A stretch of 64,000 bases of DNA, taken from contig PLXE01000054.1 of assembly GCA_003151335.1 (NCBI GenBank), positions 1 through 64,000 on the forward strand, given 5' to 3'. This document shows positions 5,994-56,150 of this stretch, one piece after another. The stretch is from Acidobacteriaceae bacterium (lineage in GTDB: Bacteria; Acidobacteriota; Terriglobia; Terriglobales; Acidobacteriaceae). The notes beneath the pieces were generated by a model, which was given only the letters and a program-made list of their open reading frames with translations, was not told the DNA's origin and did not search any database. A program made the translations under genes and the position numbers. Position 1 is the stretch's first letter. Every line of letters begins with the position of its first letter.

Positions 5994-6665
5994 TTGAAAA
6001 TTCGCATTCTCACTCTGTCTCTCACAATTCTGTGTCTTGCCTTGACCGCCTCCGCTGGCACAACGTTCTTCAACGACGGCGGGATTGATGGCAACGACAA
6101 TGCGTTCTTTGTCACCGGCCCCAACTACATAAATATTGGGCAGTCTTACCAGGACATTTCGAACGGGTTTGTTTCGGCAGCGTCCGGCACCCCCAACACC
6201 CTCGAGTGGGGTGAGTGGTCAGCCGGCGCGCCGACGAGTTTTAGCTATGAGATAGGCACCACGGCGTTCGGCACAGAACTCGGTTCCGGGACCGTTGCGC
6301 AAAATGCTGGTAACAGCACCTTCCTCTTTAACAACGCCTACGGTTACGGCGTTTACGACGTTAAGGTTGGTATTACCTCCTTAGCCATGACAGCCGGCAA
6401 CACGTACTGGCTCTCCATCAGCAATGCCACCGACGCCGCCAACGATGGTACGCAAGGGTGGGATCTAGCAGGACCCAACGGCGGTCCTGCGACTTGCAAC
6501 TTCCGGCAGAGCGGTACCAATTATGGCTATTGTGGTTATGGCGGGGAATCCTTCACGCTCACTGGCGGAACAGCACCAGGAACCCCTGAGCCCAGCAGCA
6601 TTCTGCTGTTCGGTTCTGGCATCCTCGGCTTGGCCGGCGTCCTGCGCCGCAAACTTAACCGGTAA
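5994..6665 (+). CDS. PEP-CTERM sorting-domain protein
   Basis: A secreted protein of about 223 residues. The start is the TTG at 5994, preceded by AAAAGGAGGG at 9-base spacing; it places a clean signal peptide (MKIRILTLSLTILCLALTASA) first. The mature part is Gly/Asn/Ser/Thr-rich and beta-like. The last 27 residues are a PEP-CTERM signal: GTPEPSSILLFGSG, a hydrophobic stretch, then RRKLNR, which exosortase recognises for surface or EPS-linked export. A sigma-54 promoter lies upstream and an intrinsic terminator follows, so it is a single-gene transcription unit. No exosortase gene is in this window. The extracellular role is unknown. Confidence 0.85.
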   Translation: MKIRILTLSLTILCLALTASAGTTFFNDGGIDGNDNAFFVTGPNYINIGQSYQDISNGFVSAASGTPNTLEWGEWSAGAPTSFSYEIGTTAFGTELGSGTVAQNAGNSTFLFNNAYGYGVYDVKVGITSLAMTAGNTYWLSISNATDAANDGTQGWDLAGPNGGPATCNFRQSGTNYGYCGYGGESFTLTGGTAPGTPEPSSILLFGSGILGLAGVLRRKLNR

Positions 6666-6694
6666 ATACAACCCTTCCCCATTTCAAGAAAACG

Positions 6695-6719
6695 GCCGGA
6701 GCTTCTGCTCTGGCTTTTT
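6695..6719 (+). terminator. Intrinsic terminator after the PEP-CTERM gene
   Basis: GCCGGAGC and GCTCTGGC form an 8-bp stem (one G-T pair) around the loop TTCT, followed directly by five T. It ends the PEP-CTERM transcript about 30 bases after the stop codon. Confidence 0.85.
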
Positions 6720-6805
6720 CTTGCAATCTGGAAAGAAATCAGGGAACGAGCGGTTTCCCTGTACGACCTGAAGTAAGCAGCCCGCGGCCAGCATCGGCGT
6801 TCCGC

Positions 6806-9406
6806 TTACCAGGTTGACGGCAAGGAATCGTCGAGTTCGGTGGTCAGCGCCCACTCGGTGGCCCGCTGCTGCTCGCGCGTGAGTTTCACCCCGCCGCAGG
6901 TCAGGTAAAAAGCGTCATGGGCGGTTGCGCCCTCGGTGTCAATCAGCGCCACCTCAATACTGCAGCTCTGCCGGGCGAGGATGGAACTGATGGTGTGCAG
7001 CAGTCCGGGACGGTCCTGGGTGACGACTTCCAGCAAGGTGCTGGCCGGAGAACATTCCTCGTCGAAGCGCAGGCGGGTTTCGACCTTGAGCCTCGCCGGC
7101 TTGGTGTCGGACTTGAGGCGCGATTCCAGCAGCCGCTCCAGGGGAGCTTCGCCGATCACGATTTCGACAATCGACTTCTTGAAGCGCTCGCATTCCGGGG
7201 GATTCAGCTCCAGGGTGTGAAAGCGGTCTTTGAAATAGAAGCTGTCGACGATGACTCCGGCGCGATTGGAGAAGGCGCTCGCCTTGGTGATGTCCATGCC
7301 CCATCCGTAGAGAATGCCGGCCAGGGTGGAAAACAGGCCGGGGCGGTCGAGGGTCACGATGGTGAGTTCGTGCTGCCCGGCAATGCGACGTATGGCGAGT
7401 TGTGCCGGTTGGCCGCGTAGTTGCTTCGCCATCTCGAAATGCAGCAGCACCTGCTCGGGCGAGTGCGACATGAGGTAGCGCTGGGGCAGGCCATCGAGAA
7501 ACTTCAACAGTTGCGACCGGCGCTTGGGCAGCAGCGCGGCGATGCGCTCCACTTGTGCGCTGCGCTCCTCGGCGTGAAATCGCTCGCTGTCGGCGCTGCG
7601 GGTAAAGTAGTTGGCCGTGCCGGTGTACAGGCGCCAAAGGTTTTCCGCCTTCCACGCAGTGAGCGCGTCAGGATTGACCGACTTGATGTCGGCGAGGGTC
7701 AGCAGCGTCAGCATCTTCAGCCGCTCGGGGGTGCCCACTTTGTGCGCCAGTTCGCGCGCCGTCTCGGGATCGTAAATGTCGCGGCGGCGCAACGTGGACG
7801 ACATCTCCAGGTGGGTCGCGATCAATAGGCCGACGGTCTGATCGTCTTCTTCCTCCAGACCCATGCGCTGCACCGCAGCCGCAGCGAGTTGCACGCTATT
7901 GTGAACATGGTCAGTGCCGTCCATGCCTTTGCCGGTATCGTGCAGCAGCAACGCCAGAAACAGCAGTTCTGGCTGCGCCAACTCGGCCAGCAGAATGGCA
8001 AAAGGCTGCAACCACTCGACGTCATTGGTCGCCAGCCGATGCAACATCTCAATCGCGAGAATGCTGTGTTCATCCACGGTGTAGCGATGGTAGAGGTCGC
8101 GCAGGACCAGCGAGTCAATCGCCTCGAATTCTGGAATGGCGAGCGTGAGCAGGCCCAGCGAATGCATGGCGCGCAGCGCATCCGCAGCGTAGGGCAGCAC
8201 GAGTAGTTCGCGCAGATGTTCCCACAGCCGCGAGTCCAGCGGCATGGTATCGGCCAAGCCGCGGCGTGCGTTGCCCAGCCGGCGCTCGGTCTCAACACTG
8301 AGCGCGACGCCGTGGCGGGCGACAAAAGTGAAGAGCCGCAAGATCACGAAGGGATCGCGAGCGCCGGCAGTTTGCTGGAGATAGACGCGTCCGTCCACCA
8401 GCGAAAATTCTTCATTCGAGGAGCGCGAGCGCCACTGCTGAAACGAGCGGTACAGCGAAGAACGTTTTCTGGGAAGCTGTTCCAGCATCTGCCGCGCGTG
8501 CCGATGGATGGTCTTGGCATGGCGAAAGTACAAGCGCATCCATTCGGCGGAGGAAACGCTGCCGGCCTGGGTCGCGATACCACGCTTGGCCAACTCATCC
8601 TGGGCCTCCCAAGAGATGACGTTCTCGTCGCGATTGCCGCGGTAATGCAGGTAGCAGCGGGTGGAGGTGAGGAAGTCCAGCGCATCGAGGACTGCATCGG
8701 TTTCCGAATTTGGCGGCGGGTTGAGCGTGTCCGGCCACTTGCGCTCGGACGCCAGCGCCAGGATCGTCTCCAGCCATCGCGATACATGCAGGTCGCGCAG
8801 TCCGCCGGGACCTTCTTTCAGGTTGGGCTCCAGATGAAAGATGGTGTCGCCGAAGCGCAAATGGCGGGTGCGAGTCACTTCCGCCAGGCGTTGCATGAGA
8901 ACGTCCGCCTCGCGCGCCACAAGTTGTGGCAGGCCCTTTTCATGGAGACGCTCAAACAGCTTGGCATCGCCGTTCAGAAAGCGGCAGTCGAGCAGCGAGA
9001 CGGTAAACTCGACATTGTCGTGGTCGAAGCGTGCGCACTCGTCGAGCGTGCGAGTCATGGGACTGACCCGCAGGCCGGTGTCCCACATCTCCTGGCACAT
9101 ACTGCGCACCGGGTCCTTCATGCGGCCGCGCAGAGCGTCGTTCTCAGCCAGGAACAATAGGTCGATGTCGGAATAGGGGAAGAGTGCGCTGCGGCCGAAG
9201 CCACCCAGTGCGGCCAGCGCGAAGCCGCTGCGGACGGTTGCCGGGACGTGCTGCTCCCAGAGTTGCAGCGCCAGCTTGTCCACAAACTGCGTGCGGTCAC
9301 GCAGCGAGGCGCGGCCCGAGCCGGTCGCTTCGAACTCCCGCCGCAGACGCTCGAACTCTTGCCGGTACAAGGCGCGAGGACCGTGTTCGAGCGCCTGGCT
9401 GGACAT
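6806..9406 (-). CDS. glnD: [Protein-PII] uridylyltransferase / uridylyl-removing enzyme
   Basis: A protein of 866 residues, normal for GlnD, the bifunctional sensor that adds UMP to PII when glutamine is low and removes it when glutamine is high. The N-terminal nucleotidyltransferase motif is GGFGRSALFPYSDIDLLFL (metal ligands Asp80 and Asp82). The central HD phosphohydrolase motif is LLLHDTGKGMDGTDH. Two C-terminal ACT domains each start with a DRPGL motif. The start at 9406 has GGGAGG upstream; the frame extends further but through the preceding spacer. It lies 43 bp downstream of the PII gene in the order amtB-glnK-glnD, so sensor, signal protein and transporter are probably co-expressed. 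Confidence 0.95.
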   Translation of the reverse strand: MSSQALEHGPRALYRQEFERLRREFEATGSGRASLRDRTQFVDKLALQLWEQHVPATVRSGFALAALGGFGRSALFPYSDIDLLFLAENDALRGRMKDPVRSMCQEMWDTGLRVSPMTRTLDECARFDHDNVEFTVSLLDCRFLNGDAKLFERLHEKGLPQLVAREADVLMQRLAEVTRTRHLRFGDTIFHLEPNLKEGPGGLRDLHVSRWLETILALASERKWPDTLNPPPNSETDAVLDALDFLTSTRCYLHYRGNRDENVISWEAQDELAKRGIATQAGSVSSAEWMRLYFRHAKTIHRHARQMLEQLPRKRSSLYRSFQQWRSRSSNEEFSLVDGRVYLQQTAGARDPFVILRLFTFVARHGVALSVETERRLGNARRGLADTMPLDSRLWEHLRELLVLPYAADALRAMHSLGLLTLAIPEFEAIDSLVLRDLYHRYTVDEHSILAIEMLHRLATNDVEWLQPFAILLAELAQPELLFLALLLHDTGKGMDGTDHVHNSVQLAAAAVQRMGLEEEDDQTVGLLIATHLEMSSTLRRRDIYDPETARELAHKVGTPERLKMLTLLTLADIKSVNPDALTAWKAENLWRLYTGTANYFTRSADSERFHAEERSAQVERIAALLPKRRSQLLKFLDGLPQRYLMSHSPEQVLLHFEMAKQLRGQPAQLAIRRIAGQHELTIVTLDRPGLFSTLAGILYGWGMDITKASAFSNRAGVIVDSFYFKDRFHTLELNPPECERFKKSIVEIVIGEAPLERLLESRLKSDTKPARLKVETRLRFDEECSPASTLLEVVTQDRPGLLHTISSILARQSCSIEVALIDTEGATAHDAFYLTCGGVKLTREQQRATEWALTTELDDSLPSTW

Positions 9407-53724: not shown

Positions 53725-54318
53725 CTACCGCGCTAGCTCCAGCGCCACTGCGAGCGGGTCCTCCACAATCGCGTCCACCAGTCCGCCCTGTAACGCTTGG
53801 GGCGCGTGCAGCTTTTCCGCTGCCAGGAACATCTGCAGCGCGCGGGCTTTGCCGACGATTCGAGGCAGACGCTGCGTCCCTGCCCACCCGGTGATCAGGC
53901 CGAGCGCGGCGCCGCGATGTCCAAACATCGCATGAGCACTGGCGATGCGGCGATCGCAAGCCAGCGCGAGATCCAGTCCTCCGCCCATGCAGTAGCCCTG
54001 AACGACGGCGATGGTGGGAGCCGGGAAGCTGGCGATTGCAGTCATCAAGCGCTGACCCATCTGCGCGAAACGGAACGCTTCCGCGCCGGTCAACGCGGCA
54101 ATCTCGTTGAGGTCGGCCCCGGCCGAGAAAAACCTGGCATTGCCGGCGATCACCAGGCGCGCGGGCGGATACAGCGCAAGGTCCTCGACAGCAGCGGTGA
54201 GGGCCTGCACTCGGGCGCGCGTCAGGCGGTTCGTGCCATCCTCCGAGACGAGGCGCAGAACGACGGCGTTGCCACGCGGCTCGCGAGAGTACAGGGTTGC
54301 TTGGGAAGTGGGATGCAC
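53725..54318 (-). CDS. Short enoyl-CoA hydratase/isomerase family protein
   Basis: A 197-residue crotonase-fold protein with GTG start. CoA site: IAGNARFFSAGADLNEIAAL and VVQGYCMGGGLDLALACD; then FGHRGAALGLITGWAGTQRLP. It stops after about 197 residues, where typical members have 250-270, so the C-terminal helical lid and trimer contacts are missing. It may be a naturally short form or a decaying gene; the frame is otherwise intact. Confidence 0.75.
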   Translation of the reverse strand: MHPTSQATLYSREPRGNAVVLRLVSEDGTNRLTRARVQALTAAVEDLALYPPARLVIAGNARFFSAGADLNEIAALTGAEAFRFAQMGQRLMTAIASFPAPTIAVVQGYCMGGGLDLALACDRRIASAHAMFGHRGAALGLITGWAGTQRLPRIVGKARALQMFLAAEKLHAPQALQGGLVDAIVEDPLAVALELAR

Positions 54319-54454
54319 CGATAGCTAGGGTAGCAAACGGCCCGGCATCTGAGCGGTACTGTCGCTGGCGGCTGCTCGCGCAGGCTGCCATGCTGCGGCG
54401 AATTAGCCGAAAAAGCGTTAAGATGTCGCTCACAAGGCAAGAGGAGGACGGCTA

Positions 54455-55654
54455 ATGGCGCACCATGAGAGGCTAACGACTTTCTCCCGCAGATCGTTTC
54501 TGCAGGTTTCTACCGCCGCATCTGCAGCACTGGCGTTGCGCGTCGTGACTGAGCCCATGCTGGCGTACGCGCAGGAGTTGCCGTACGCGCCCGTCGGCGG
54601 GGTCCGGATCAACGCCAACGAAAATCCACTTGGCCCTTGTGCAGCCGCGCGCAGCGCGATCGCGGCGATCATGCCGGAAGCTGGCCGTTATCGCTTCCGC
54701 TTGACCGAGGAATTCGTCGGCCTCTTCGCGGAAAGCGTCGGCGTGAAAGCGGACCATGTCAGGATTTTTGCCGGCTCGACCGAGCCGCTGCACTATACCG
54801 TGATGGCTTTCACCTCGCCCCGGGCGAGTTACGTGACCGCCGACCCCGGATACGAAGCTGGCATGTATGCCGCGAAAAGTTCCGGCGCGCGGGTGGTCAA
54901 GGTGCCGCTCACCAAGACTCATGCGCACGATGTGAGGGCCATGATTGCCGCCGCGCCCAACGCGGGCGTGTTCTATATCTGCTCGCCGAACAATCCAACC
55001 GGAACGCTGACCAGCCATTCCGACATCGAGTACCTGCTGCAGAACAAGCCCAAAGCTTCAATCGTGCTGGTGGACGAGGCCTACATTCACTTTTGCGATG
55101 CGCCTTCGACCATCGACCTGGTGGCGTCCGGCCATGACTTAATCGTGTTGCGCACTTTTTCGAAGCTCTACGGAATGGCGGGCTTGCGCTGCGGATTGGC
55201 CATCGGCCGGCCCGACCTCATGCAGAGGCTCGAGGATTACGGCGGAGGTAATCCCATGCCCGTGACCGCCGTCGCCGCGGCGTCGGCGAGCCTGAAGGAC
55301 ACGCAACTGGTAGCCGAGCGCAAGCGCATCAACGCAGAAATCCGCGAGGAAACTTTCCAATGGCTCGATCGCAACGGATATTCCTACATTCCTTCGGTAT
55401 CCAACTGCTTCATGCTCGATACCAAGCGGCCGGCGAAAGAGGTAATCGCCGCTATGGCCCAGCAGAACGTCTTCATTGGCCGTATCTGGCCGCTGATGCC
55501 AACCTACACCCGCATCACGGTTGGAACTCGCGAGGAGATGAACCAGTTCCAAGTGGCGCTGCAGAAGGTGATGAAGGGAAGTGTGGTGGGCGGGCTGCGG
55601 CGAAAGGATGAGCCACCGCTGCGGCACATCGATGGGTTTATTTTGCCGGGGTGA
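54455..55654 (+). CDS. Tat-exported PLP-dependent aminotransferase (HisC-like)
   Basis: A 399-residue class I/II aminotransferase. The ATG follows AGGAGGACGG. The N-terminus is a twin-arginine signal: SRRSFLQVSTAASAALALRVV, ending near AYA. The mature enzyme has INANENPLGP, DPGYEAGMYAA, YICSPNNPTGTL, LVDEAYIHF and the PLP Lys in RTFSKLYGMAGLRCG, all typical of histidinol-phosphate aminotransferases. Export of a PLP enzyme folded with cofactor fits the Tat route. Its periplasmic substrate is unknown; a role in histidine synthesis seems unlikely. Confidence 0.82.
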   Translation: MAHHERLTTFSRRSFLQVSTAASAALALRVVTEPMLAYAQELPYAPVGGVRINANENPLGPCAAARSAIAAIMPEAGRYRFRLTEEFVGLFAESVGVKADHVRIFAGSTEPLHYTVMAFTSPRASYVTADPGYEAGMYAAKSSGARVVKVPLTKTHAHDVRAMIAAAPNAGVFYICSPNNPTGTLTSHSDIEYLLQNKPKASIVLVDEAYIHFCDAPSTIDLVASGHDLIVLRTFSKLYGMAGLRCGLAIGRPDLMQRLEDYGGGNPMPVTAVAAASASLKDTQLVAERKRINAEIREETFQWLDRNGYSYIPSVSNCFMLDTKRPAKEVIAAMAQQNVFIGRIWPLMPTYTRITVGTREEMNQFQVALQKVMKGSVVGGLRRKDEPPLRHIDGFILPG

Positions 55655-55727: not shown

Positions 55728-56150
55728 CTAAGTGGTCGCCGGAACGCCGCGCGACTTCACGTTGGCGCGGATGAACTCAATGATGGAATCCATCGGAGTG
55801 CCCGGTTGGAAGATGGCAGCCACCCCAGCCTTCTTCAGCGTCTCGATATCCTGATCGGGAATGATGCCGCCCACCAGCACCAGCACGTCGTCCATCTGGT
55901 TCTGCTTCAGCAGGTCCATCACCCGGGGCACGATGGCGTTGTGCGCGCCGGAGAGGATGCTGAGGCCAATGACGTCCACGTCTTCCTGCAGCGACGCGTT
56001 GACGATCATCTCCGGGGTCTGGCGGAGCCCGGTGTAGATCACTTCCATGCCGGCATCGCGCAAGGCGCGGGCAATCACTTTGGCGCCGCGGTCGTGGCCA
56101 TCGAGGCCGGGCTTGGCAACCAATACACGGATTTTGCGGTCAGGGGACAT
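55728..56150 (-). CDS. B12-binding small subunit of an acyl-CoA mutase
   Basis: A 140-residue cobalamin-binding domain: [22 protein letters not shown] contains the DxHxxG His that ligates cobalt, followed by [16 protein letters not shown] and [19 protein letters not shown]. Alone it is the small subunit of a two-gene mutase such as isobutyryl-CoA mutase. The large subunit is encoded at 56878-58683 on the same strand, about 730 bp upstream, with a small opposite-strand gene in between. Confidence 0.9.

Follow-up and report, generated by a model that had tools for sequence, protein, structure and literature searches.

A predicted twin-arginine-exported transaminase of the PRK09105 subfamily in an Acidobacteriaceae genome, and the amino acid oxidase-RidA pair found beside its relatives

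Results

An intact aminotransferase gene with a twin-arginine signal

The window analyzed here is a 64-kb stretch of DNA from an Acidobacteriaceae bacterium (GCA_003151335.1, contig PLXE01000054.1, positions 1-64,000, forward strand). On this strand, an open reading frame at positions 54455-55654 yields an uninterrupted translation of 399 amino acids, assigned to a predicted exported transaminase of the PRK09105 subfamily on the basis of its sequence, Pfam and NCBIfam matches, alignment and predicted structure. A ribosome-binding site, AGGAGG, can be read on the same strand at 54442-54447, 7 nt 5' of the ATG. The gene stands alone, divergent from a gene of the enoyl-CoA hydratase family (53725-54318, reverse strand, Pfam ECH_1) and convergent with one encoding a B12-binding domain (55728-56150, reverse strand, Pfam B12-binding), and the wider stretch carries HMGL-like, carboxyltransferase-like and mutase-like genes. 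Both neighbors were treated as context lying outside the system; a functional link with these acyl-CoA genes was rejected because they are encoded on the opposite strand and their order is not conserved past near relatives.

The N-terminus of the translation, MAHHERLTTFSRRSFLQVSTAASAALALRVVTEPMLAYAQ, presents a basic start, the twin-arginine motif SRRSFLQ (residues 11-17; 54485-54505, forward strand), a short and modest hydrophobic stretch, and the residues AYA followed by Q at positions 37-40. A Tat signal peptide was accordingly predicted for residues 1-39 (54455-54571, forward strand), with putative cleavage after AYA. The Pfam TAT_signal model matches residues 10-28 with 18.1 bits, under its curated cut-off of 22.7. 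The arginine pair is found at the same position in essentially all complete homologs from public genomes, which range from 93% to about 35% identity and come from Acidobacteriota and Caulobacter, and it is near-invariant in a 23-row alignment of relatives. The features by which Tat substrates are recognized in sequence (RR motif, hydrophobic stretch, AxA site and conservation among homologs) are hence all present, and the genome bearing the transaminase encodes TatC (238.6 bits). Among the 50 predicted genes of the window, a Tat-like motif near the start was otherwise seen only as a single unrelated chance match.

The sequence-only reading had proposed an aminotransferase with a Tat signal, to be abandoned if the true start lay after the signal segment. 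The first part is borne out, at the level of sequence, by the motif and AYA site, the conserved RR and the presence of TatC, and the signal appears to lie inside the true reading frame. Because RR is kept in essentially every complete homolog, a start 3' of the signal is very unlikely, and the third codon position accounts for most of the changes in residues 1-44 with respect to three same-genus relatives (9 of 15, 5 of 9 and 9 of 13), which argues that this segment is translated. A cytoplasmic aminotransferase with a merely signal-like N-terminus, translated from Met35 (54557), is the start chosen by a simple codon-usage gene call, but it was rejected as highly improbable given the ribosome-binding site at the first ATG, the third-position bias and the conservation of RR across several lineages. 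Judged from its sequence, the open reading frame is thus confirmed as a genuine, intact fold-type-I aminotransferase gene with a twin-arginine export signal, and its product is predicted to be exported by the Tat pathway.

Family assignment and active site

The enzyme domain is complete (Pfam Aminotran_1_2, class I/II aminotransferase, E = 2.4e-38). The highest-scoring NCBIfam model is NF006580/PRK09105, which the protein matches at 527.5 bits (cut-off 444). The alignment begins at residue 9 and runs through the signal, so that the subfamily profile itself extends into the Tat signal; the cut-off is exceeded over the full length, and nothing excludes the protein from this subfamily. The second model, PtaA (NF051461), scores 442.7 bits, under its equivalog cut-off of 500, and the third, HisC (TIGR01141), scores 227.5-227.7 bits, under its equivalog cut-off of 276.55. 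Lys237, Asp207, Tyr210, Asn179, Arg245 and Arg353 are invariant in the 23-row alignment, as expected for a fold-type-I PLP site, and we take them to bind PLP and a carboxylate as in HisC-type enzymes, with Lys237 (codon at 55163-55165, forward strand) as the presumed Schiff-base lysine. An AlphaFold model built with 23 relatives has a confident core (mean pLDDT 81.4, pTM 0.82), and its best PDB match is 3ly1, a putative HisC from Erwinia, followed by other HisC-type enzymes. The same entry ranked first in a sequence search of the PDB, with 4r2n, a putative phenylalanine aminotransferase, in second place.

The description of the protein as a complete HisC-like PLP enzyme therefore stands as far as the domain and the PLP residues are concerned, but does not extend to HisC itself. 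Fold and PLP residues are common to both, whereas HisC lacks a signal, and the Gly342-Arg343 pair of the exported family is aligned differently in the genome's own HisC. This separate true HisC, encoded elsewhere in the genome, reaches 297.5 bits with TIGR01141, and the housekeeping identity was rejected on that ground and on the score of the window protein.

Relationship to PtaA and distribution of the family

Exported aminotransferases as such are established in the literature. In Pseudomonas fluorescens, Tat exports PtaA along with its PLP, and in the periplasm the enzyme acts as a transaminase, converting the glutamate of pyoverdine into alpha-ketoglutarate; it occurs also in species without pyoverdine, for which reason its authors expected other roles (PMC6206403). 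PA2531 of P. aeruginosa, an aminotransferase with a Tat signal, appears in a table of Tat substrates (PMC6085387). A literature search on Tat and HisC in Acidobacteria returned nothing specific.

The window transaminase shares with PtaA the Tat signal, the fold, the active site and the wider family, at about 45% identity to the PtaA loci, and PtaA is its second-best NCBIfam match. An orthologous enzyme tailoring the glutamate of a pyoverdine-type siderophore is nevertheless very unlikely, and was rejected: the score lies under the PtaA cut-off, the four PtaA loci (L117-L120) form a strongly supported clade of their own, apart from that of the window protein, and no NRPS condensation domain was found in the window's genome, which is estimated to be 100% complete and, lacking such a domain, would not make pyoverdine. 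The protein is related to PtaA, but is not a PtaA ortholog.

Across Acidobacteriota, the PRK09105 cut-off is passed in 19 of 297 genomes. Within the taxonomic family of the window, 99 of 250 genomes hold a copy at E ≤ 1e-120, and the distribution is patchy, since three of the nine genomes of the window's genus have none. In a Caulobacter-centered panel of 399 Pseudomonadota genomes, strong PtaA-like matches were obtained in 12, five of which pass the PtaA cut-off. The rarity originally ascribed to periplasmic aminotransferases is consequently only partly right, given these counts in the family, a named subfamily (PRK09105) and the published PtaA and PA2531. Only supported local groupings of the tree were used, because it was midpoint-rooted and because a long branch drew the row of locus L110 toward the HisC outgroup, a placement taken as an artefact and left unused. 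The L110 transaminase (6622-7758) is 42% identical to that of the window, yet its neighborhood resembles that of L109, whose transaminase is 63% identical; this odd divergence is possibly due to a sequencing or frame problem.

Several other related copies were observed. A deeper group of HisC-like aminotransferases with Tat signals, scoring about 250-330 bits, is found phylum-wide in Acidobacteriota and forms its own clade (L022-L037, L053-L063), and tandem pairs of such distant-clade enzymes occur in several genomes (e.g. G332:C20, G099:C25, G156:C353). On a Burkholderia multivorans replicon (L116, about 6001-6960), a relative with 42% identity seems to be without a clear Tat signal, so that some lineages may have given up export or may never have acquired it.

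An oxidase and a RidA-family protein beside related transaminases

The sequence-only reading had advised inspecting the neighborhood in other Acidobacteriota. The window's own neighbors are kept in near relatives only, but a different arrangement recurs in other lineages, in which the transaminase has as neighbors a flavin amine oxidase and a protein of the RidA family, and a TonB-dependent receptor often comes next. The closest solved relative of the oxidase is an L-amino acid oxidase (LAAO), 2jae. The oxidase of L109 starts with the Tat-like MGLTRRQFLM, and for most of the other copies the alignment to this protein begins at residue 1. Where the N-terminus of a RidA copy was called in full, it opens with a hydrophobic segment resembling a signal peptide. 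Such signal-bearing RidA-like proteins usually accompany the transaminase-adjacent oxidase, in eight genera other than that of the window. The pair was seen beside the transaminase at L109 (5887-7960) and L110 (4550-6584), and also at L079, L080, L083, L039 and L040. It is likely to be a periplasmic unit for amino acid oxidation in Acidobacteriaceae.

In the 250-genome panel, the transaminase is present in 99 genomes, the oxidase in 54 and both in 38, an enriched co-occurrence (Fisher P = 2.4e-7, uncorrected for relatedness). Seventeen of the 38 genomes with both, drawn from eight genera, have the two genes no more than 1 kb apart, against about 0.03 expected under random placement, again uncorrected for kinship; part of this linkage is surely inherited. 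There are at least two arrangements, convergent or on the same strand with the oxidase upstream, and the LAAO-linked copies of the transaminase are spread over at least two parts of the tree. Of the 99 transaminase-bearing genomes, 61 have no copy of the oxidase, and no close homolog of it was found in the window's genome. TonB-dependent receptors lie near 15 loci. These receptors are very numerous in Acidobacteriota, and were set aside as a weak clue when taken alone.

A comparable pairing is known from Gluconacetobacter. The published account describes a lao-cccA-ridA cluster encoding an LAAO with a Tat signal, a cytochrome c and a RidA proposed to hydrolyze imines, and reports that the LAAO-RidA cluster is needed to form indole-3-acetic acid from tryptophan (PMC5053998). 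The oxidase and RidA of the G. diazotrophicus cluster are of the same type as those beside the window gene's relatives. In the passages of that account considered here, no transaminase is described in the cluster, and the oxidase is missing from the window's genome.

Discussion

Considered together, the family assignment and the neighborhoods of relatives suggest that the window protein is a PRK09105/PtaA-like periplasmic transaminase working in a setting of periplasmic amino acid turnover, a reading to which we assign a probability of roughly 0.7. The export, activity, direction and substrate that we infer for it would be as follows. The enzyme would fold and bind PLP in the cytoplasm and be exported by Tat already folded; in the periplasm, it would exchange amino groups between alpha-keto acids and alpha-amino acids, the latter either free or terminal in a peptide or small molecule, with its tightly held PLP being regenerated in each full transamination cycle. 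In several related genera, the Tat-signal LAAO and signal-bearing RidA would supply keto acids in the compartment where the adjacent transaminase would work, and this enzyme could use them as amino acceptors or give amino groups back to them. It is this presumed production of keto acids by neighboring genes that makes amino acid turnover the most likely setting; in the window's genome, which lacks the oxidase, the keto acid would have to be supplied otherwise. Candidate substrates are aromatic amino acids, residues within peptides, and muropeptides.

A broader version of this proposal, which we advance tentatively and hold to be somewhat improbable as a whole, is that exported transaminase, Tat LAAO and signal-bearing RidA, often with a TonB-dependent receptor, constitute an acidobacterial module for general, pyoverdine-independent periplasmic amino acid deamination and amino-group exchange, of which the window's clade would keep the transaminase only.

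Modification of the cell wall or of peptides, as first suggested from the sequence, fits the neighborhoods of relatives less well; these point rather to periplasmic amino acid oxidation and deamination. Transamination of the N-terminal residues of small peptides or muropeptides would find a precedent in PtaA, which acts on a peptide-bound glutamate (PMC6206403), and would suit the M19 (membrane) dipeptidase gene lying directly downstream of the transaminase at L042 (2848-4023), as also at L043, and the DHDPS-family gene that adjoins the transaminases of L047-L052. No recurrent peptidoglycan or peptidase gene lies next to the window's own branch, however, and this role appears unlikely. The DHDPS-family gene is located directly downstream on the same strand, at about 120 bp, in five genomes of one genus (L047, L048, L049, L051, L052).

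Slightly less probable still is a periplasmic aromatic aminotransferase that would yield aromatic keto acids such as indole-3-pyruvate. The inclusion among HisC-type enzymes of the putative phenylalanine aminotransferase 4r2n, the second PDB match, is consistent with such a role, as is the requirement for LAAO and RidA in Gluconacetobacter indole-3-acetic acid formation (PMC5053998), but the absence of the oxidase from the window's genome argues against it.

The window protein is of a kind already known: it belongs to a family that already has a name, here represented in an acidobacterium, and a periplasmic relative of it has been published. The linkage of oxidase and RidA to its relatives is the less expected part, and the one worth following. 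Pyoverdine tailoring is the sole established job found in the literature for an exported transaminase, and a widespread acidobacterial branch lying recurrently by an exported oxidase and RidA would be a place to seek a second function, together with the missing amino donor or acceptor.
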